From Candidatus Saccharimonadota bacterium (lineage in GTDB: Bacteria; Patescibacteriota; Saccharimonadia; Saccharimonadales; Saccharimonadaceae): a DNA stretch of 33,734 nt. Where the stretch lies: positions 1 to 33,734 of the forward strand of contig WRFU01000009.1 of assembly GCA_009778675.1 (NCBI GenBank), given 5' to 3'. A model generated the notes under the pieces. That model was not told the DNA's origin. It did no database searches and saw only the letters and a program-made list of their open reading frames with translations. A program made the position numbers and the translations under genes. Shown here piece by piece: positions 4,971 to 15,963 of the stretch. How positions within the stretch are numbered: the stretch's first letter is position 1; every line of letters starts with the position of its first letter.

Positions 4971-5210
4971 ATGGAAACAGTTCAATCAAACTCGACAACC
5001 AGATCAGTCTCAAAGGCTGTTCTTGTTGATGACGGACTGCTAATAACTGTAAAAGAAGCTAGGAAGATCCTCGGAAAAGGTGCAAAGAATCTCAGTGATG
5101 AATACCTAACAACAATGATAGTGGCTATGGAAGCACTAGCTCAAGATGTAGTTATAAAGAATGTCGTTCCAAACTTACAGCAGGTATGCTACGATAGGGA
5201 TAAGTTATGA
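4971..5210 (+). CDS. 79-aa protein coupled to the recombinase
   Basis: 79 residues from the ATG at 4971; the frame could begin at a TTG at 4923, but that codon lies in the terminator. The N-terminal 20 residues are Ser/Thr-rich, then comes a helical region with a segment beginning VKEARKILGKGAKNLSDE, which recalls small DNA-binding or accessory proteins encoded before large serine recombinases. The last bases overlap the recombinase start (ATGA-type overlap at 5207), so the two are translated together. An excisionase or directionality-factor role is possible by position only. Confidence 0.65.
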   Translation: METVQSNSTTRSVSKAVLVDDGLLITVKEARKILGKGAKNLSDEYLTTMIVAMEALAQDVVIKNVVPNLQQVCYDRDKL

Positions 5211-6775
5211 ACTACGCATACGGATACAGACGAGTTAGCACAGATGAACAGGTGGATGGTGCTTCTTTAGAAAACCAAAAACGAGCTATTACAAGATATG
5301 CCAAGGACAATGACATTGAAGTTGTCGGCTGGTATGAAGATGAAGGTATATCAGCTAAAACTGCTCACCGTCCAAACTTACAGCGTATGCTGGATGATGT
5401 TAGAAAAAACAGAGGTAAAGTTGATTACATAATTGTATATAACACTAGTCGTATCTCAAGGAACATGGAATCCTTCTCGAAGGATATTGCGCCCTTTTTA
5501 ACGGCTAATGGTGTCGGTTTACGTTCTACACAAGAAATGATTGATGAAACACCGTATGGCAAGTTTATGAAGAACTTGTCTATATCTATACACCAGCTTG
5601 ATAACGATATTAAATCGCAGACTGTATCAGATAATATGAAGCTAGTGGCACAACAAGGGTGGTGGCAATCGTGTTCACCTTATGGGATGAAGATCGAGAA
5701 AGTAGTCATTGGTAAGAATAATGATGGTAAGCCAAAATACAGGTGTGTTCTAGCACCTGATACTACTGATGGCCTATCAGATAAGGTGGCACTAATCATC
5801 AACAGATTCAGTAGTGGTAGTATGAATGTGGCAGATATACTAGTATATGCCAAAAAGTTAGGTATGAAAGGTATGAGGGGTGGTGAGCTGTCGTTTAACA
5901 CCTTAGATAATATACTGCGTAGTGCTGTTTATGCCGGCTATATATGCTCAGAACGTCTGACTGAAGGTGAAGTATATAAGGGTAACTGGGATGGCATAGT
6001 TAGCTTTGATACTTACAAACGTAACCAGATACTGCTAAATCGTGATAAGCGAGTGTTTAACCCTCTACCTGATGAGTTCTACCCTCTTAAAGCTTCGGCA
6101 TTATGTCCTGTATGCCATAAACACTTACGCGGCAGTGCTCCAAAGAACGGTAGCGGCAAACCGTCGCCTCGATATCATTGCACCTGTAAAGGCGCGAAAA
6201 GCATGCAGCCACAGGAAGCGCATGAGATATTTGCTAAGTTCCTTGAAGATATAACACCAACGGATGGAACGGTCAAACTATTCAAAGAAATTGTTAAGCG
6301 AACCGTGCATAAACAATTAGGGTCTGTAAATACCGAAATCAAAGCTCTGCGAAGTGAACAAGGTAAGATTGATAGTGACATGGAAAAAGCCCTCCAGAGG
6401 CTCTTAGATGGCGATATAACACCTGAAGAGAAGGATCTATATATCAGTAGCAATAAGAAACGCCGATCTGACCTTGATGCATCGATTGTGGAACTGGAAG
6501 ATATACAGAAAATTAATGAATCCACTATCGAGTACGTTTGTAATTTCATCACTATGCCAGCTAAATTGTGGCGTGATGCTAACTATGAATCTAAGGTAGC
6601 GTTCCAGGGTATGTTATTCCCGGACGGATTTGTACTAGACACTAATAATAAACGATGTGGAACGGAAGGTTTAAGCCCACTCTTCTCTGTTATCTCAACC
6701 CAAAAAGCACCAAATGGTGCTCTTAATTCTAACGTGGTGATCTCGCCGGGAATCGAACCCGGATTGCCAGGATGA
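5207..6775 (+). CDS. Large serine recombinase (site-specific integrase)
   Basis: 522 residues. The N-terminal resolvase domain (about 3-150) has YGYRRVSTDEQ with the nucleophile Ser11 and the downstream R-I-S-R signature. A recombinase domain follows (about 160-275). A zinc ribbon comes next, with CPVC and CTC pairs near 300-330, then a coiled coil (about 365-430), the layout of large serine integrases. Such enzymes join attP and attB with a 2-bp crossover and need a directionality factor for excision. The last 13 codons run through the tRNA-Glu gene on the opposite strand, and the tRNA terminator lies within the ORF as well. Base and codon use (ATA, AGA, TTA) differ from the glycolytic genes, which fits transfer. 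It marks the region from about 3070 as an integrated element. Confidence 0.93.
   Translation: MNYAYGYRRVSTDEQVDGASLENQKRAITRYAKDNDIEVVGWYEDEGISAKTAHRPNLQRMLDDVRKNRGKVDYIIVYNTSRISRNMESFSKDIAPFLTANGVGLRSTQEMIDETPYGKFMKNLSISIHQLDNDIKSQTVSDNMKLVAQQGWWQSCSPYGMKIEKVVIGKNNDGKPKYRCVLAPDTTDGLSDKVALIINRFSSGSMNVADILVYAKKLGMKGMRGGELSFNTLDNILRSAVYAGYICSERLTEGEVYKGNWDGIVSFDTYKRNQILLNRDKRVFNPLPDEFYPLKASALCPVCHKHLRGSAPKNGSGKPSPRYHCTCKGAKSMQPQEAHEIFAKFLEDITPTDGTVKLFKEIVKRTVHKQLGSVNTEIKALRSEQGKIDSDMEKALQRLLDGDITPEEKDLYISSNKKRRSDLDASIVELEDIQKINESTIEYVCNFITMPAKLWRDANYESKVAFQGMLFPDGFVLDTNNKRCGTEGLSPLFSVISTQKAPNGALNSNVVISPGIEPGLPG
6701..6721 (-). terminator. Intrinsic terminator of tRNA-Glu
   Basis: On the minus strand AGCACC-ATTT-GGTGCT is followed by a T run. 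It lies 13 bases past the tRNA 3' end and inside the 3' end of the recombinase ORF. Confidence 0.7.
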
Positions 6776-7145: not shown

Positions 7146-8585
7146 ATGGTAAAAAAATTCAAACGCACCAAAATATTAGCCACTATCGGGCCGGCTGTTA
7201 GTAGCCCCGAAAAAATCGAAGAACTTATACAACTAGGGGTCAACGGTTGTCGGCTTAACATGGCACACGGTGATTATCCCGAATACGACCGCCATATCGA
7301 CTGGATTCGTACAGCTAGCAAAAAATTAGATCGCCAGGTGGCAATTGTCCAGGATCTACAAGGGCCAAAAATCCGCCTAGGCATGTTAAAAAACACCAAA
7401 CTAGAAGTCAAAACCGGTGACGAACTGGTGCTGGACTCTAGCCTAAAAGAACATACTGGCAATTTACGCCTGCCGGTCCAGTACAACCTGGCCGAAAAGG
7501 TCAAAATCGGCGAACCGTTATATATTTTTGATGGCAAAATCCAAACCGAGGTTACAGAGGTAGTCAACAAAACTGCCATAAAGGTAAAAGTCAAAAACGA
7601 CGGCGTAATTATGAGCAACAAAGGCATTAATTTGCCCGACACCGATTTTAGTGGTGATGTTTTAACAGATAAAGACATCGCCGATATAGAATTTGGCGTT
7701 AGTCGCGATTTTGACTACGTGGCACTAAGTTTCATTCAATCGGCCGAAGATATCGACAATTTACGCCAAATACTGCTTTCCTACGGTTCTGACGCCCAGA
7801 TTATCGCGAAAATCGAGACCAAAGCAGCTGTTAAAAGCGATAAACAGCTAGAAGATATCGTCAAGGCAACTGATGGTATTATGGTAGCTAGGGGTGATAT
7901 GGCCTTTGAAGTCAGCGCCGAAGTGGTGCCAATTGTCCAAAAAAAGCTGGTCGCCCTGTGCCGTAAACACGGTAAACTGTGCATTGTGGCCACCCAAATG
8001 ATGAGCAGCATGGTTGATAACCCCGAGCCAACCCGCGCCGAAGTTAATGATATCGCTACCGCTGTTATCCAGGGGGCAGATGTCGTCATGCTCAGCGAAG
8101 AATCAGCAGTTGGCGAGTATCCACTAGAAGCCGTGCAATCGATGCGTAACGTTATAATTTACACCCAAGATAACTACCCAGTCGACCCCATACCCACCGA
8201 TGTAGTAAGCAGTAACGGCGAAACTCTAAATGCTATTAGCGAAGCCGCTGTTGGTTTAGCCGAAAAGTTAGATGTTGATGCCATTATTGCCGGAACGACC
8301 ACTGGTATCACCGCCGCCACGGTAGCAGCTAATCGACCAAATTTACCAATTATTAGCGTTACCGATAGCCCTAGGGTAGCGCAGCAGCTAGCCCTAATGT
8401 ATGCCAATGTTAGCTATATAGGTGATAATTACGACGACGATTACATTTTTGGTTTAGTTAAAGATATGTTAGGTACCGGCCGTTTGGGCTACAAAACTGA
8501 GGTTTTGGTGGTAATTGTGCGCGGCCAGCAAAAAGGCATCCCGGGTGGCACTGACACAATTGAAGTTAGGAAAATCTCAAGGTGA
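7146..8585 (+). CDS. pyk: Pyruvate kinase
   Basis: 479 residues, full length. It transfers phosphate from phosphoenolpyruvate to ADP, the ATP-yielding last step of glycolysis. Visible motifs: TKILATIGPA-type start (residues 8-17), RLNMAHG (typical enzymes have RLNFSHG), the KIE catalytic lysine region, MVARGDM, ATQMM, and the PTRAEVNDIATAV...MLSEESAVGEYP block. The C-terminal domain (about 355-479) is present. The start follows a -10 box by 7 bases, so the mRNA is probably leaderless. pgk lies 72 bases downstream and may be cotranscribed. No palindromic insertion is seen here, unlike in several other housekeeping genes of the window. Confidence 0.98.
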   Translation: MVKKFKRTKILATIGPAVSSPEKIEELIQLGVNGCRLNMAHGDYPEYDRHIDWIRTASKKLDRQVAIVQDLQGPKIRLGMLKNTKLEVKTGDELVLDSSLKEHTGNLRLPVQYNLAEKVKIGEPLYIFDGKIQTEVTEVVNKTAIKVKVKNDGVIMSNKGINLPDTDFSGDVLTDKDIADIEFGVSRDFDYVALSFIQSAEDIDNLRQILLSYGSDAQIIAKIETKAAVKSDKQLEDIVKATDGIMVARGDMAFEVSAEVVPIVQKKLVALCRKHGKLCIVATQMMSSMVDNPEPTRAEVNDIATAVIQGADVVMLSEESAVGEYPLEAVQSMRNVIIYTQDNYPVDPIPTDVVSSNGETLNAISEAAVGLAEKLDVDAIIAGTTTGITAATVAANRPNLPIISVTDSPRVAQQLALMYANVSYIGDNYDDDYIFGLVKDMLGTGRLGYKTEVLVVIVRGQQKGIPGGTDTIEVRKISR

Positions 8586-8597
8586 GGCTGCCTGCTG

Positions 8598-8663
8598 TTT
8601 GCCATTTTGGGCAATCGGCTTTTGCCGTAGGCAAAACGCTCGGCCTGGAGGGCAACGATGGCA
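8598..8663. repeat. PR-E copy 2, overlapping the pgk start
   Basis: It shares AATCGGCTTTT...AAAACGCTCGGC and the flanking TTTTGGG and TGGWGGGC with the copy at 6918-7073, with a central TTTTGCC/GGCAAAA hairpin. The right arm holds GGAGGG (8647-8652), the Shine-Dalgarno of pgk, and runs into the first pgk codons. Confidence 0.75.
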
Positions 8664-9890
8664 GTTGACCAACTACCACTCAAAAGACTACAAGATGTTG
8701 ATGTTGCTGGTCAAACAGTACTAGTCCGGGTTGACTACAATGTCCCATTAACAGATGACGGCCAAATCAGCGATGATTCGCGTATTCGGGCTAGCCTGCC
8801 TACTATCCATTATCTGTTAGACCACGACGCTAAAAGGGTTATCCTGTGCAGCCATTTAGGCCGCCCAGGGGGTAAAGTTGTGCCAGAATTATCGCTTAAA
8901 CCAGTGGCACAGCGGTTAGAAACTTTGTTAGATACGCCTATCTTTGCTGCTGCTATGAGCTCTCCTGCCCCCTATCACTGTGAACTTGTTTCGGAATCTG
9001 ACCCCAAGATCCTGAAACAAGTTCAGGATGACAAGATTACTCTACTCGAGAACTTGCGTTTTGACCCTGGTGAAGAAGCCGACAGCCCTGAATTTGCCAA
9101 ACAACTAGTTGAATCAACAGGGGCACAGGTGTTCGTCCAAGACGCTTTTAGCGTTCTACACCGCACATCTGCCACCACAGATGCCATCACCAGGCTATTA
9201 CCGAGTGTGGCTGGGCTGTTAGTCGAAAAAGAAGTCAAAACGCTTACAGCGGCCTTAAACAAGCCCACACGGCCATTTGTGGCGGTAATAGGTGGTGCTA
9301 AAATCGCCGATAAAGTCGGTTTTGTGCAAAAAATAGTCCAAATTGCCGATCAAGTGCTAATCGGTGGTGCCCTAGCCAATACCTTCTTTCAAGGCCATTC
9401 CTTGAAAGTCGGTAAGAGTTTGGTTGATGCCGATGGGTTAGGGGTAGCCAAACAAATTTTGGCCGAAAATGGGCAAAAAATCATCTTGCCAACCGATGTT
9501 GTGGTGGCCGGCGAAATTAACGAAGACGCCAATGTACTAGAAAAATCAGTTAATAACGTCCTAGACAATGACATTATTCTAGATATTGGTTCACAAACTG
9601 TTGCAGAATTTACAACAGTTATATCTACAGCCAAAACCATATTATGGAACGGTAACTTGGGCTATAGCGAAATAGATCGCTTTGCCACCGCCACTGCCAT
9701 GGTAGCCAAAGCTATCGGTGAAAATACAACTGCCACCACTATTATTGGCGGTGGTGATACAGCTGGTTTTGTGCATAATTACCAAAAAACCCATAAAAAT
9801 CTAAAATACAGCCTGATTTCTACCGGCGGTGGCGCCACGTTGGCGTTTATCGCTGGTGAACCGTTACCAGGGCTAGAAGCTCTAAAATAA
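8658..9890 (+). CDS. pgk: Phosphoglycerate kinase
   Basis: 410 residues. It makes ATP and 3-phosphoglycerate from 1,3-bisphosphoglycerate. Motifs: VRVDYNVPL (23-31), SHLGRP (65-70), ENLRF, GGAKIADK, WNGNLG, and the nucleotide-binding GGGDTAG with STGGGA near the C terminus. The ATG at 8658 has GGAGGG 5 bases upstream, within a palindromic repeat. About 20 extra residues (about 104-125, containing CELVSESDPKILK) sit before LLENLRF, where related enzymes go straight into the strand; they are encoded by a PR-A inverted pair (8977-9032). A PR-B copy at 9387-9407 encodes residues that align in length with normal Pgk. Catalytic motifs are intact, so the enzyme should be active. Confidence 0.97.
   Translation: MAVDQLPLKRLQDVDVAGQTVLVRVDYNVPLTDDGQISDDSRIRASLPTIHYLLDHDAKRVILCSHLGRPGGKVVPELSLKPVAQRLETLLDTPIFAAAMSSPAPYHCELVSESDPKILKQVQDDKITLLENLRFDPGEEADSPEFAKQLVESTGAQVFVQDAFSVLHRTSATTDAITRLLPSVAGLLVEKEVKTLTAALNKPTRPFVAVIGGAKIADKVGFVQKIVQIADQVLIGGALANTFFQGHSLKVGKSLVDADGLGVAKQILAENGQKIILPTDVVVAGEINEDANVLEKSVNNVLDNDIILDIGSQTVAEFTTVISTAKTILWNGNLGYSEIDRFATATAMVAKAIGENTTATTIIGGGDTAGFVHNYQKTHKNLKYSLISTGGGATLAFIAGEPLPGLEALK
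8977..9032. repeat. PR-A inverted pair inside pgk
   Basis: A diverged PR-A (8977-8999) and a standard one in the opposite orientation (9007-9032) form a hairpin with about 20-bp arms and a loop of about 7 bases. The reading frame stays open through it. Confidence 0.85.
9387..9407. repeat. PR-B copy inside pgk
   Basis: Exactly the 21-bp PR-B unit (TTTCAAGG, then CCATT, then CCTTGAAA), identical to the intergenic copies at 16031, 18783 and 25813. It encodes part of TFFQGHSLKVGKS and adds no length to the protein. Confidence 0.9.
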
Positions 9891-9925: not shown

Positions 9926-10972
9926 TTAGACGGCCTCTTGTAGCCCATTTTTACCGAGTGCCACAAAAAGCATAGCTAAGTCAAAAGCTTGCCGTCCGAT
10001 AACAGCGTGCGAGTGGTTTGGTATCTCTAGTAAATCAATTACACCGGGGTTCTTTTCGTTGACCCTATCCGCTACTGCTCTCATATTGTTAGAGTTATTA
10101 AGCCTACTTTCGTCTAATTGGATTAACTGTATACCTTTAACTGCATCAGTTTCAGCGGCGGCCTCAAGATCTTTTTCGAGCCCAGCTTTGCTCATGGACA
10201 GCGGGCGATCAATCAGGGTTTGCCATAAATAACTTGGCGCATGTTGCCTTGGTGGCGCTACCATCCTGATAGGGACTTTAAGTGGGTTACCCTTAGCTAT
10301 ACCTGTAATATCTTCAGGAGTCGCCATAGTGTATTGGATCACATTGCCATTTTCTAACCCCGTAAAACGCCAGGCCATGCGCTCAAACCCTAAATACTCG
10401 CTACCGGGTGGGTCAACAGCGTTAATTATCATCTGTTCTTGGTCTAAAAACGGCGCTGCGCTTAAGGCTAACCGACCACCTTCTGAAGCCCCGTGGACAT
10501 ACAAAGCAGCCGTTTGGGCAATGATATCTTCTGACTCAAAAAAGTCATTGATTGCCGGTGCTAACCATTCACCGGCTGCAGCGTAGCTACCAGTTTTAGC
10601 CAGGTCTTTGACCACGCTGGTAGGGAATAAATCTGAACCACTAAACCCAGGTTGTTCAACGATCACCAGCGATCGGTCCAACCCACTAGCCAAACTAGAC
10701 ATTTCTTCACCATGCTTGCTGTTTGATATACCCCAAGGTTGAAACATTAAAATAGCGCTCTTTGTAGCGCTTTCACCGATTTTTCTATATAAATTAATAT
10801 TTATTTTTTTGCCATTTTTTACTTCAATTCGGTGGATTTCAGGCTCTGGGGGGGGGGTGCTATCGATATCTTTGGCCTGTTGTAATAGCTCATCCTTTGA
10901 AGCCCTAAAAACCTCACCGCCATCTTGGCTGGACAAGACTTTTAAGCCATCGTGAAAGCTATAATCAATCAT
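9926..10972 (-). CDS. Alpha/beta hydrolase-like protein
   Basis: 348 residues from the ATG at 10972, placed 6 bases after a TATAAT box, so probably leaderless. GASEGGR near residues 161-167 is a G-x-S-x-G nucleophile elbow (Ser163), and NHSHAV near 319-324 supplies a likely catalytic His. The first 55 residues are not typical of the fold. The substrate is unknown; an esterase or peptidase-like role is the usual outcome for this fold. There is no signal peptide, so it is probably cytoplasmic. It is convergent with pgk. A run of ten C in the coding strand (codons ~39-42) sits early in the gene and could switch it on and off by slippage. It could instead be an inactive fold member. Confidence 0.8.
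   Translation of the reverse strand: MIDYSFHDGLKVLSSQDGGEVFRASKDELLQQAKDIDSTPPPEPEIHRIEVKNGKKININLYRKIGESATKSAILMFQPWGISNSKHGEEMSSLASGLDRSLVIVEQPGFSGSDLFPTSVVKDLAKTGSYAAAGEWLAPAINDFFESEDIIAQTAALYVHGASEGGRLALSAAPFLDQEQMIINAVDPPGSEYLGFERMAWRFTGLENGNVIQYTMATPEDITGIAKGNPLKVPIRMVAPPRQHAPSYLWQTLIDRPLSMSKAGLEKDLEAAAETDAVKGIQLIQLDESRLNNSNNMRAVADRVNEKNPGVIDLLEIPNHSHAVIGRQAFDLAMLFVALGKNGLQEAV
10848..10857 (-). repeat. Poly-C tract of 10 in the hydrolase coding sequence
   Basis: Ten G on the plus strand (C on the coding strand) encode Thr-Pro-Pro-Pro at about residues 39-42. It is much longer than any other G/C run in the window. Slippage by one base would frameshift the gene after about 40 codons. Confidence 0.9.
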
Positions 10973-10984: not shown

Positions 10985-11174
10985 GCTCAGATTAACTAAA
11001 ATGTCAAGTCGAATTGGTAGTGACAGTGGATAGTCCCAGAGGTGGATCTTTTAGCCTATTTATTTTTGGCTTAGCATTATCTTAGATTATGCTTGTGTTT
11101 TGTTTGGAAAAGGGTAATATATTAACTAAGTAGAGTAGGCACTAAAGATGCGAGAGAAAAGTGGTTATACAGCT

Positions 11175-14100
11175 ATGCGCATTGCAAAAAAATGTAGTTA
11201 TTTAGTATTTAGCCTACCAGTGGTGTTGTCATCGATATTTGCTGCTATGGCCTATATTTTGTGGCAGCCTACGGCTAATGCTGCTACGGCGGCCGATCCA
11301 TCCACCATTCCAGCTTGCAACGGTAATTCAGAGTGTTTTGCGTTTACCGTTGACACTCGATTAACTAGTAGTGGTGCTACCACCAACACGACCACCAGTT
11401 TTTCGATACCAACCTCGGGTAATGTCGGCAGCGCCAATAATCCGTACAAGTGGTTGATTGACTGGGGTGATGGTAGTGACCAGCAAGCGGTATCTGGCAC
11501 TAGCGGCTCTACTTCGGCTGGCATTGCTCATAACTATGCTTCGACCGGTGGGGCAGGGCAGTACCAAATTACTATCCAGCCCAATGGCACTGCTACAGCC
11601 GGCTGGCTTAATGCTTTTAGTTTTAAAGATAATACCGCGGGTGCTAATACCAACGCCAATAAATACATGTTTAGGTCTATTGATACGCCATTTACCGAAT
11701 TGATGCGTACCAAAGGTGCAGCTTATCGCTTTTCCCAAATTTTTTACGGCACAGTTAATGGCACAGTTATCCCGAGCAATTTGTTTACTAATGTTTCAAC
11801 AACTGGTGATACTAATTTGAGCTATTTATTCAGTAGTACTTTTTATAATTTTGCGAGTAATTCGACCACTGCCGCTATTCCAGCCGGTCTATTTAGTAGT
11901 ATTGACACTAGTAGTGGTACAAACTTTGACCATGTATTCCACGGCACTTTTTATGCTTATGCTACTAATTCTACCACTGGCACTATCCCAACCGGCCTGT
12001 TTAGTACAATTGACACTAGCCGTGGCACGAATTTCAACTATGCATTCTTTAGCACTTTCAGTAACTATGCCAAAAAATCTACCACCGCCACTATCCCAGC
12101 TGGCCTGTTTAGCACAATTAATACTAGCAGCAGTAGCGGTGCAGCCCTAAGTTATATGTTTGGTGGTACTTTTAACGGCTACGCCTATAATTCCACCGCT
12201 GGCACTATCCCAGCCGGCCTATTTAGTAGTATCAGCACTACTAATTGCACCAACTTTAGTTATATGTTTAGCAACACTTTTAACAGCTACACCTTTAATT
12301 CCACCACCGCTACCATTCCGGCCGGGCTATTCAGCACGATTGACACTAGTAGGGGGACTAATTTGGCGTATATGTTTTATAGTACTTTTTCGTCGTATGC
12401 TTTTAATTCTACCACTGGCACCATTCCAGCTGGACTATTTAACAGTATAGTTACTAATAGCAACACCAATTTTAGCAATCTGTTTGAGGGTACTTTTAAT
12501 GGCTATGCTCGCAATTCTACCACTGGCACCATTCCGACGGGTTTATTTGATTCTATCAAAACCAGTCTTGGTACAGATTTTAGTTATATGCTATGTAACA
12601 CTTTCTCGAATTACGCTTATAATTCTATTACCGGCACTATCCCGGCCGGTTTATTTAACGGCATTAACACTGCCCGTGGCACTAATTTTAATAGCATGTA
12701 CTATAACGTGTTTAACAATTACGCTAGCCGTAAGGCTACTTTTAAAGTTGGTGGCACGGTTGCCGGATCATGGACTTACATTAGTCCCTACTGGTCCAAA
12801 ATTGGTCCAAATGGCACACCAGACGCTAATCCGACAGTTAACGCTACCACTGGTAGTCAAGTTATTCCGACTTACAACACCAATAATCGCAACATCAACG
12901 CCCCAACTGGCACATACGCTAATGCCATTTGGTATCGCACCGATGGTACATCTTGCGCTGTTACAACCCCCACACCAGACTGTGGCGCACAAACACCAGC
13001 CCAATATGTTAGTTTTCCTAATAACACCGAATGGGCCACAACCACCAGCACCGAGCATGGTAGCGTAACTTTTTACTCTGGCCCAGCTTCGGCGGCGATC
13101 ACCAACACCACCATAATAGGCTGGGCGAATATCGAATTAGTGCCCCAAACGGCTACTATCACCTTGGGTGGTATCAAAACCACTAGCTTACTGGCCGGGG
13201 CTAATATCACTAGTTGGTTCACTAATCTACCCGCTGGTCTGACCGCCACTGTGGCTAACACTGCGGTTGGTGCTGCTGCTATTGATGTGACATTCACTGG
13301 CACGCCGGTGGCTGATTCTACTGGTACGCTAGTAGTTGCTATACCGGCTAGTACTTTATCTTCTAATGCATTATTGAATGTTGCAACCAACCCCAATGCT
13401 ACCTGGAGGATTACCACACCGCTGGCTACCATGTCCCCAGCCACTATTTCGGGCTGGACTGGCACACCGCTGGCCAGTGGCCAAACGGTTAATATTGGGT
13501 TTACTAACACCGCTATTGCCAATGGCACCGCTTTTCGACTACGGTTGGCCGCTGGTACCGATGTAACTAACTGGTTTACTAATATCCCAAGCGGTTTGAC
13601 CGCCACTATTGATACTACAGCTAACATTGGTGATACAGCAGTGTCGGTGGTATTCGCTGGCACTCCCGCAGTTAATAATTTAGAGGCGATCGCTGTTACT
13701 ATCCCAGGCGCGCAACTTACGTCCGGGGCTGATTTAGAGGTAGCTAGCAACCCCGAAACACAGTGGCAAATTGTTACCGCCGCCGCCGATATCGCCAATG
13801 TGATGGTATCTGGTACGGTGAATCAAATGCTAAAGCCGCAATCCACCACGGTGAATTTAACAGATACCACGATTAAAGACAGCATTCCAGCCGAGACTAA
13901 CATAACCAGCTGGTTCACAAACCTCCCGGCGGGCTTAAAAGTTACCACCAGTAGCAGTGTTGCGGCTGGTAGCACAACTATTCCCATAACTTTTTCAGGT
14001 CAACCAACAGTTGCAAGTTCGGCCACGATTGATTTTACAATTCCAGCCGCTTATCTGATTTCTGATGCCAACCTGGCCGTCATCATCAATCATGCGGCGC

Positions 14101-14237
14101 ACTACCAGATTACTATCGGTGTGCCAAACACAGGGGTAGCGAAAGCCACATTGGCAGGGTCGCTGCTAGCGATAATATCTGGTATGGCACTAACCTTAGT
14201 GATCGCTGTATTTATCCTTAAAAAACGAAGAGTGTAG
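11175..14237 (+). CDS. Large repeat adhesin with VPNTG sortase signal
   Basis: 1,020 residues from the ATG at 11175. The frame is open from 11148, but the paralogue at 28921 starts at the equivalent Met (MRITKKLSYLVF versus MRIAKKCSYLVF). A signal peptide is followed by a domain with WLIDWGDGS and a tail QYQITI, as in PKD or BspA-type N-domains. Nine repeats of about 36 residues follow (11779-12750), each with a GLF...T-F...STT-TIP pattern like BspA/DUF285 repeats. A linker and three copies of a ~110-residue domain, each with an ITSWFTNLPAGL-like line (about 13100-14130), come next. The end is VPNTG, a hydrophobic helix and KKRRV: a sortase signal, so the protein should be wall-anchored. A host- or partner-binding role is inference; no sortase is in the window. 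Confidence 0.9.
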   Translation: MRIAKKCSYLVFSLPVVLSSIFAAMAYILWQPTANAATAADPSTIPACNGNSECFAFTVDTRLTSSGATTNTTTSFSIPTSGNVGSANNPYKWLIDWGDGSDQQAVSGTSGSTSAGIAHNYASTGGAGQYQITIQPNGTATAGWLNAFSFKDNTAGANTNANKYMFRSIDTPFTELMRTKGAAYRFSQIFYGTVNGTVIPSNLFTNVSTTGDTNLSYLFSSTFYNFASNSTTAAIPAGLFSSIDTSSGTNFDHVFHGTFYAYATNSTTGTIPTGLFSTIDTSRGTNFNYAFFSTFSNYAKKSTTATIPAGLFSTINTSSSSGAALSYMFGGTFNGYAYNSTAGTIPAGLFSSISTTNCTNFSYMFSNTFNSYTFNSTTATIPAGLFSTIDTSRGTNLAYMFYSTFSSYAFNSTTGTIPAGLFNSIVTNSNTNFSNLFEGTFNGYARNSTTGTIPTGLFDSIKTSLGTDFSYMLCNTFSNYAYNSITGTIPAGLFNGINTARGTNFNSMYYNVFNNYASRKATFKVGGTVAGSWTYISPYWSKIGPNGTPDANPTVNATTGSQVIPTYNTNNRNINAPTGTYANAIWYRTDGTSCAVTTPTPDCGAQTPAQYVSFPNNTEWATTTSTEHGSVTFYSGPASAAITNTTIIGWANIELVPQTATITLGGIKTTSLLAGANITSWFTNLPAGLTATVANTAVGAAAIDVTFTGTPVADSTGTLVVAIPASTLSSNALLNVATNPNATWRITTPLATMSPATISGWTGTPLASGQTVNIGFTNTAIANGTAFRLRLAAGTDVTNWFTNIPSGLTATIDTTANIGDTAVSVVFAGTPAVNNLEAIAVTIPGAQLTSGADLEVASNPETQWQIVTAAADIANVMVSGTVNQMLKPQSTTVNLTDTTIKDSIPAETNITSWFTNLPAGLKVTTSSSVAAGSTTIPITFSGQPTVASSATIDFTIPAAYLISDANLAVIINHAAHYQITIGVPNTGVAKATLAGSLLAIISGMALTLVIAVFILKKRRV
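11779..12750 (+). repeat. Nine ~108-bp coding repeats
   Basis: Tandem units of about 36 codons, nine copies, diverged in sequence but with a constant GLF...TIP frame; unit 4 is two codons longer. The paralogue at 29617-30256 has six. Copy-number change by recombination is likely over evolution. Confidence 0.85.
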
Positions 14238-14296: not shown

Positions 14297-15082
14297 ATGG
14301 GTAGGCAAAAAAAGTTAATTATCGGTAACTGGAAAATGAACTTCACGGTGGGTGAAGCTAGTTTACACTTAAATAAACTAGAAAATGCTATTAAGCCTGC
14401 CCCTAATGTAGAGGTTGTTTTAGCCCCCAGTACGATTAGCCTGCAACCGCTTAGTTTACAGGTAAAGCCCAAACAATTTAAACTAGCCGCCCAAAATTAT
14501 TATTGGCGGGATTTTGGCGCTTTTACTGGTGAAACTTCAATCCATCAGCTAAAAGGCATAGTAAAATACGCCATAACTGGTTACGGTGAACGGCGTTATC
14601 TGTTTGGCGAGACCAACAAAGACATCCGTCGCAAAGTAGCCGCCGCCCTGCGTCACGACATCATACCGGTGTTGTGTATTGGTGAAACAGCTAACGAGCG
14701 GCAATTTCATGAAACCAGCGATGTCATTTACGATCAGCTTATCTCTGGTCTGGCCGAAGTTACCAGCGAAGATATCACCAAGGTAGTAATAGTTTACGAA
14801 CCAGTTTGGGCTATCAGCACCGTAGCCGATGCTGAAATTTGCACCCCAGATGATGTCGCCGCCGCGATCAAAGAAATCCGCCACCAGGTTGAATATCTGT
14901 ATGGCAAAAAAGTTGCTGAGCAAATCCAAGTACTATACGGTGGTGGTGTCAACGAAAATAACGTCGGTAGCTATTTACTGACCCCTGGCGTCGATGGCCT
15001 ACTTGTCGGCAGTAGTAGTTTAAGAGTAAAATCATTTGCAGACATAGTCGAAAAAGCAAATATCTTAGGAGGAAAAATATGA
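14297..15082 (+). CDS. tpiA: Triosephosphate isomerase with altered active site
   Basis: 261 residues, a complete TIM barrel. It normally interconverts dihydroxyacetone phosphate and glyceraldehyde 3-phosphate. GNWKMN with Lys13, CIGET, YEPVW with Glu168 and the GGGVNENN phosphate region are present. However, the usual GHSERR is GYGERR here (TAC at 14582-14584): the general-acid His is Tyr96. Loop 6 also departs from the usual AIGTG pattern (AISTV). The enzyme may be slow, reshaped or repurposed, and nothing else in the window could replace it. The -10 region TACACT/TTTAAA just upstream gives a very short leader at most. Its last codons overlap the next gene at 15079, so the two are coupled. 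Confidence 0.93.
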   Translation: MGRQKKLIIGNWKMNFTVGEASLHLNKLENAIKPAPNVEVVLAPSTISLQPLSLQVKPKQFKLAAQNYYWRDFGAFTGETSIHQLKGIVKYAITGYGERRYLFGETNKDIRRKVAAALRHDIIPVLCIGETANERQFHETSDVIYDQLISGLAEVTSEDITKVVIVYEPVWAISTVADAEICTPDDVAAAIKEIRHQVEYLYGKKVAEQIQVLYGGGVNENNVGSYLLTPGVDGLLVGSSSLRVKSFADIVEKANILGGKI

Positions 15083-15963
15083 AAGACCTAGATTTTGATG
15101 AAATTGACCGAGCGGTTGGTAGTGCCATGGGTGGTAGTGAGCCAAAGGCGTCAGAAAGCTCTCCATTTATCGAACAACTCAAAAATGATGTCAAGGCCGA
15201 CCCAGCACCAGAAAACGCGCCTAGCGAGCCTGTAGAGCCTGTAGCGGTCAAGTCTGAGCCGAGGGTCATTCCTCACCGTAAGGGTCAATTTTTAGATATG
15301 GTCAATCCTAACGCCAATATGAAGCATCACCACCACGGTGTTATCCCGCCAAAAGTGTCACACGAAGCCGCTAGCATCGAGCCCGATAGCAGCGCCCGAA
15401 AAGATACCCCAGTAGCGGCAGAAGAGCCACCCAAGGAACAACCCAAAACCGAGCCAGTAACACCAGGGGTAGAGAATCTAGACGATCAAGACGACGACGT
15501 AACAGAAATTAACCCTGATAAGTTGATTGAAGAACCCGAAGAAGACCCTAAACTACCAGAAGGCATCAAAGATGAGCTACTAGAAGCTCACAGCGAAGAC
15601 ACCGAGCCCAAAGGGTTAATCGAAGAGGAATCGGGCAAAGAAGCGCCAAAAGAGCCCGAAAAGGTAACAAAACAACCCGAACAGCTTGAACAAGATGAAG
15701 AATCAGCCCTCGATACGCCATTTTTGCCAGATACCAAGGTAGAAAAACGACCTCTAGGGGGTGGTGAGCCCGAAGTTATAGCTAGCACACCAGACGTCCA
15801 CCAAGAAATTAAAGGTTTAAGTACTGCAGCACCGGCAGAACCCGCCCCAGTTATTGTAAAATCCAAAGGCAAATCGGGCTGGCTGTGGGCACTACTAGTC
15901 GTGTTACTAGTCATCTTAGGTGCCGGCATCGGCTTCGTAGTTTATCTGTTCTGGCTATCATAA
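15079..15963 (+). CDS. Acidic tail-anchored protein of unknown function
   Basis: 294 residues from the ATG at 15079, with AGGAGG upstream, overlapping the tpiA stop. The first 255 residues are strongly acidic and Pro/Glu-rich, low in order and with no recognised domain. The C-terminal about 24 residues (from about residue 268, GWLWALLVVLLVIL...) form one membrane helix with almost nothing after it. The topology is either tail-anchored with a cytoplasmic acidic domain or, less likely, outside. The protein at 22890-23429 has the same plan. Coupling to tpiA need not mean a metabolic role. Confidence 0.78.
   Translation: MKDLDFDEIDRAVGSAMGGSEPKASESSPFIEQLKNDVKADPAPENAPSEPVEPVAVKSEPRVIPHRKGQFLDMVNPNANMKHHHHGVIPPKVSHEAASIEPDSSARKDTPVAAEEPPKEQPKTEPVTPGVENLDDQDDDVTEINPDKLIEEPEEDPKLPEGIKDELLEAHSEDTEPKGLIEEESGKEAPKEPEKVTKQPEQLEQDEESALDTPFLPDTKVEKRPLGGGEPEVIASTPDVHQEIKGLSTAAPAEPAPVIVKSKGKSGWLWALLVVLLVILGAGIGFVVYLFWLS

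Follow-up and report, generated by a model that had tools for sequence, protein, structure and literature searches.

The window analysed here, the whole stretch of 33,734 nucleotides, carries the sole triosephosphate isomerase (TIM) gene of a Saccharibacterium, a bacterium of symbiotic type, and this gene encodes a full-length TpiA with tyrosine in place of the catalytic His95. Among about 200 Saccharibacteria TIMs a catalytic residue has been lost in four independent lineages. TIM is the textbook case of a perfect enzyme, and hardly any variation is expected at its catalytic His and Glu. Taken from sequence, the pattern suggests that the altered single-copy TIM is kept for something besides the textbook reaction, perhaps together with the membrane protein encoded directly downstream.

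The window protein, its active site and its locus

The window gene is a normal Saccharibacteria tpiA passed down by vertical inheritance. Active-site positions are given in the standard numbering, in which His95 and Glu165 are residues 96 and 168 of the window protein.

14297..15082, plus strand: tpiA, triosephosphate isomerase orthologue, single copy, 261 aa (Pfam TIM; AlphaFold2 model)
14333..14335, plus strand: catalytic Lys (window residue 13), kept according to the sequence alignment
14582..14584, plus strand: Tyr codon TAC at catalytic His95 (window residue 96), turning GHSERR into GYGERR
14585..14587, plus strand: Gly at Ser96, a second-shell position adjoining residue 95; Ser in 173 of 174 catalytically intact relatives
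14792..14794, plus strand: Val at Ala163 (IAYEP to IVYEP); Ala in 172 of 174 intact relatives; the independent H95S lineage has Val as well
14798..14800, plus strand: catalytic Glu165 (window residue 168), kept according to the sequence alignment
14801..14850, plus strand: loop 6, of the lineage type AIST...TP with an insertion; AIS-type in most Saccharibacteria TIMs, including intact ones
14945..14947, plus strand: Gly at Ser211, phosphate gripper in loop 7 (YGGSV to YGGGV); Ser in 171 of 174 intact relatives
15011..15013, plus strand: Ser at Gly233, phosphate loop 8 (VGGASL to VGSSSL); Gly in 143 of 174 intact relatives, a variable site

By family, fold and position the protein is a TIM (EC 5.3.1.1, TpiA). 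It matches PF00121 as a full-length member, with 240.9 bits against a curated cut-off of 20.1 over positions 1-244 of 245, and it keeps Asn, Lys, Glu165, Cys126 and dimer loop 3. The AlphaFold2 model (mean pLDDT 89.8, 19 aligned sequences) predicts a TIM barrel closest to solved TIMs, the best 50 PDB matches all being TIMs with TM ~0.9 (4y96 on top with 0.90). What sets it apart from the standard enzyme is Tyr at His95 together with S96G, A163V, S211G and G233S. An active TIM has Asn, Lys, His95 and Glu165 all present, and here His95 is Tyr; phosphate loops 7 and 8, which read YGGS/GG when intact, read YGGG/GS, with position 233 variable in intact relatives too.

The preliminary description had pointed to GYGERR in place of GHSERR, with Lys13 and Glu168 (window numbering) retained, and both the TAC codon and the alignment bear this out; the four further pocket changes go beyond it. 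Its remark that loop 6 is atypical is true but not specific: at residue 171 in this loop, 135 of 204 aligned TIMs have Ser and 60 have Gly, almost all with intact His95 and Glu165, and intact relatives most often have a loop of the AIS type. Loop 6 was rejected as a mark of lost function because catalytically complete relatives carry the same kind of loop. A second, standard tpiA, named there as grounds for abandoning the idea, was not found, as the whole window genome (an 825 kb MAG, 95.66% complete) contains a single TIM match.

A sequencing error at TAC is unlikely, because four other pocket substitutions co-occur with it and the unrelated H95S lineage has the same S96G and A163V. We also rejected a pseudogene for the window TIM, as the frame is open and the scaffold shows no violations. 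Out of 39 columns that are 95% conserved in intact relatives, the window TIM breaks four, all in the pocket (H95, S96, A163 and S211), and none at scaffold or dimer-loop positions. Its unique changes relative to sister lineages fall within the range of PK, PGK, PcrA and KsgA, i.e. they are at most mildly raised, and no unusual acceleration was found against these four proteins.

The gene also occupies the ancestral, orthologous tpiA locus, as the order PK-PGK-TIM-x-PcrA is common to the window and to G219, G002 and L034. The other genes of this locus that bear on the argument are:

7146..8585, plus strand: pyruvate kinase (Pfam PK, 349 bits)
8658..9890, plus strand: pgk, active-site motifs intact (Pfam PGK, 405.8 bits), the ancestral tpiA neighbour
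15079..15963, plus strand: membrane-anchored neighbour, 294 aa, acidic and proline-rich, with a single C-terminal transmembrane segment; its ATG overlaps the tpiA stop (ATGA)

With the PGK motifs intact, a degenerate PGK as part of a general decay of lower glycolysis was rejected. In the window, PGK and TIM are separated by two inserted genes, one on the minus strand and one coding for a 1029-aa surface-type protein. The latter (11148-14237) carries repeats of STTGTIPAGLFxSIxT and a membrane anchor at its C-terminus, and is absent from the PGK-TIM position in the relatives examined. A perfect sigma-70 consensus (TTGACA, 17 nt, TATAAT) is located on the minus strand at 11007-10979, just upstream of an unnamed minus-strand gene (9926-10972). 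Upstream of pyruvate kinase, a 522-aa serine recombinase with resolvase and recombinase domains (5207-6775) is a possible mobile-element remnant.

Catalytic losses and second-shell changes in related TIMs

TIM sequences were read from about 180 Saccharibacteria genomes and from named contigs. His95 is kept in 202 of the 204 other aligned TIMs, with Ser in the remaining two, and Glu165 in 200 of the 204. A survey of relatives for the same Tyr, as the preliminary description had proposed, returned no other TIM with Tyr but did reveal four independent catalytic-residue losses. Tyr95 as a clade trait is thus unsupported, all other TIMs read having His or Ser. The three lineages in addition to that of the window are:

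L110 and L111 (genomes G194 and G143): H95S lineage, two genomes, GSGERR
L109 and L113 (genomes G209 and G193): E165D lineage, two genomes, YDPVW, Gly232 to Ser
L112 and L115 (genomes G212 and G165): E165H lineage, two genomes, YHPAW, Ser96 to Pro, Ser211 to Asn

In each of these six genomes, too, TIM is a single match. The losses require four changes on a tree of 181 TIMs (built quickly under LG+G4, some branches elsewhere being long), and its starred branches alone force four; all of the losses sit within one starred group of 78 rows, the clade without class II aldolase. We regard this pattern of loss as well supported. GYxERR-type DNA matches were also sought in 295 genomes of the class, and none of those compared with the known place of TIM coincided with it; an exact GYGERR match in G228 was rejected as a Tyr-TIM, being on another contig, while the TIM of G228 reads GHSERR. 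With the search terms tried, no paper was found on a natural TIM without His95 or on a TIM pseudoenzyme.

We conclude from the sequences that the altered TIMs of the relatives are not pseudogenes, given purifying selection and pocket-focused changes. The three loss pairs give dN/dS values (NG86) of 0.061, 0.043 and 0.089, compared to 0.013-0.078 in intact pairs; these values cover the relatives' pairs, the window gene's nearest relative being 61-63% identical with saturated synonymous sites. When the defining residue is excluded, 17 of 18 conserved-column violations in loss TIMs lie in the pocket, whereas for intact TIMs the figure is 10 of 83 (Fisher p ~2e-11 for the raw count, in which related sequences are not independent).

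Two second-shell positions recur. Ser96 is changed in six of the seven loss TIMs, to Gly in the H95Y and H95S lineages, to Pro in E165H and to Ala in one of the two E165D sequences, and Ala163 is changed in four of the seven; the H95Y and H95S lineages gained S96G and A163V independently. In unliganded (open) TIM, Ser96 hydrogen-bonds Glu165; E165D alone costs 420-fold in kcat/Km, and S96P suppresses both the E165D and the H95N lesion in laboratory TIM (PMC12874384). The resulting laboratory pseudorevertants (E165D S96P and H95N S96P; Knowles and co-workers, reviewed in PMC12874384) likewise combine a catalytic lesion with a change of Ser96, whereas the Saccharibacteria lesions are natural, single-copy and spread over four lineages. 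Changes at Ser96 can mean either compensation or that Ser96 was freed once its partner was lost. L034, a named contig outside the count of 174, combines Met96 and Val163 with unchanged His95 and Glu165. Plasmodium TIM keeps His95 and Glu165. Both residues are also kept in L011, which has a natural Phe96, as does the Plasmodium enzyme (Pareek et al. 2016, cited in PMC12874384).

The relatives identified by name are Saccharibacteria, with two filed as Nomurabacteria. These two, L032 and L035 (Cf509_bin11 and Ct408_bin148, deposited as Candidatus Nomurabacteria), look like misfiled Saccharibacteria because their TIMs are the closest to that of the window and they share its gene order. In other families of the order, the otherwise conserved Glu97 has given way to Ala, Ser or Trp (GHSARR, GHSSRR and GHSWRR in L104, L105, L138, L149, L162 and L175) with His95 and Glu165 kept; fructose-bisphosphate aldolase (FBA) is present in those of these genomes that were tested (G198, G257, G158 and G111).

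DHAP metabolism and the weighing of explanations

Family searches found class II FBA in none of the seven catalytic-loss genomes, while in the intact-TIM genomes tested it was present in 50 and absent in 78 (Fisher p = 0.046, not corrected for relatedness). DeoC/LacD/FbaB-type aldolases were found in none of 34 genomes tested. GpsA is present in one of the seven loss genomes, G209 (E165D), which keeps a GpsA-like gene, compared to 13 of 16 aldolase-less genomes with intact TIM (p = 0.005, not corrected for relatedness, the intact genomes being hand-picked). As FBA and GpsA are both absent from the other six, these genomes appear to have no enzyme that makes or uses DHAP among the aldolase and GpsA families searched. 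In the window genome, a single draft, family searches detected neither FBA, GpsA nor GAPDH. FBA is absent from its nearest relatives G002, G219 and G012 as well; GAPDH is present in these three and in the six other loss genomes, so it may sit in an assembly gap. The link between DHAP enzymes and TIM is a tendency, since neither FBA nor GpsA occurs in G219, G009 and G010, whose TIM is nevertheless intact, and loss of the two enzymes does not force a change.

The alternative posed by the preliminary description, adapted chemistry or another job, is a valid either-or, and another job is favoured by the metabolic context, which lacks FBA and GpsA, together with the changed phosphate-gripper residues. 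The reading we prefer, which in our judgement is about evenly poised between right and wrong, is that the isomerase constraint was released once DHAP was no longer needed and that the TIM scaffold was kept for a non-catalytic role, the latter being what we infer from the pattern. With no enzyme left making or consuming DHAP, selection on TIM catalysis would be lifted, and the protein would be retained for a further function that the TIM dimer performs without catalysis. The likeliest such role, judging by gene adjacency, would be that of a cytoplasmic partner of the membrane-anchored protein encoded just downstream, whose gene appears to stay by TIM while the rest of the operon is scattered. 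Some weak isomerase activity may linger, but would not be the selected trait.

The strongest competing reading is that of an impaired isomerase with compensation, in which Tyr95 would donate a hydrogen bond to the enediolate, much as a Tyr does in ketosteroid isomerase, and S96G and A163V would make up for the lesion, so that GAP-DHAP interconversion would be slower but sufficient. Glu165, Lys and Asn are kept as this would require, and TIM is so fast that a slow-growing symbiont might tolerate a large loss. Ser96, a laboratory suppressor site (S96P for E165D and H95N; PMC12874384), is the very residue that the loss TIMs change so often, E165H with S96P included, and the pair S96G and A163V arose alongside both losses of His95. 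However, that pair accompanies a bulky Tyr in one lineage and a tiny Ser in the other, so it is not specifically fitted to Tyr; the phosphate-binding residues Ser211 and Gly233 have changed too, and the known DHAP-forming and DHAP-using enzymes, within the families searched, are missing. We consider such adapted chemistry rather improbable.

Plain relaxed constraint would also account for the clustering of losses in aldolase-less lineages: a redundant isomerase with no other function would be in early decay and its gene heading for loss. The TIM gene can indeed be lost, since 12 of 295 genomes of the class have none, nine of them without FBA. Genomes lacking TIM include G116, G119, G157, G160, G189, G262, G003, G190 and G032. 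The intact frame and fold, the purifying selection within the three loss pairs, the confinement of changes to the pocket rather than the whole scaffold and the near-normal relative rate of the window TIM all argue against this, and we think it unlikely. Pocket-only changes in a conserved scaffold, the window protein still having Glu165 and Lys, might alternatively reflect remodelling into an active isomerase or lyase of another small molecule; but the four lineages lost different catalytic residues, their pockets differ without a common new motif, and no new metabolic gene was seen travelling with TIM at the loci examined, which makes a new substrate highly improbable.

If retention for a non-catalytic role is correct, the altered TIMs resemble pseudoenzymes and moonlighting glycolytic proteins, in which likewise the fold is kept, catalytic residues are lost and the gene is under purifying selection; the window TIM has lost a catalytic residue, and the purifying selection is seen in its relatives' loss pairs. 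Pseudoenzymes, however, are generally paralogues beside an active copy, whereas the altered Saccharibacteria TIM is the only orthologue of its genome. Repeated natural loss of His or Glu in a sole TIM amounts to a natural experiment on the cost of catalysis and on moonlighting, in which combinations of lesion and Ser96 change match laboratory suppressor sites. Glycolysis in Saccharibacteria may be overstated, because family searches still label the altered proteins TIM.

The membrane-anchored neighbour of TIM

A membrane-anchored ORF directly follows TIM at 97 of the 100 loci testable in the order and at one of 10 in other orders of the class, membership being judged by position, transmembrane segment and motif, with no profile used. 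The membrane segment is internal instead of C-terminal in six of the 97. The two genes usually overlap or nearly abut, the commonest spacing being -4 and the next -1. Conserved islands of the neighbour are DFDELDxAV at the start (in many members), MD(V/M/F), and (S)PF(L/I)xxxxV(E/D)KRPLG before the membrane; Pfam and NCBIfam gave no family above cut-off. Besides the window (15079-15963), the neighbour is seen downstream of TIM in L032, L034-L036, L220-L225 and others, and all seven loss TIMs keep it. At 36 loci, those of all seven loss TIMs included, the neighbour is present and PGK is outside the scanned stretch; the PGK gene of the window lies 4.4 kb upstream of TIM, beyond the short locus scanned.

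This conserved neighbour offers a testable lead to a non-metabolic role of TIM, although adjacency of the genes does not prove physical interaction of the proteins. Gene knockouts are available in Nanosynbacter lyticus TM7x (PMC12815258). Extending our preferred reading, we tentatively propose, as a possibility that is probably wrong in at least some part, that TIM and the largely disordered membrane-anchored protein may form a standing complex across the order, and that in lineages done with DHAP the TIM may have been retired repeatedly as an enzyme and survive purely as a structural cytoplasmic partner. L118 (G252) is a 715-aa open frame with a very divergent TIM part (GGAKVE at the Asn-Lys site, 155 bits) and is possibly a PGK-TIM fusion; the ORF downstream of it also has a membrane segment.
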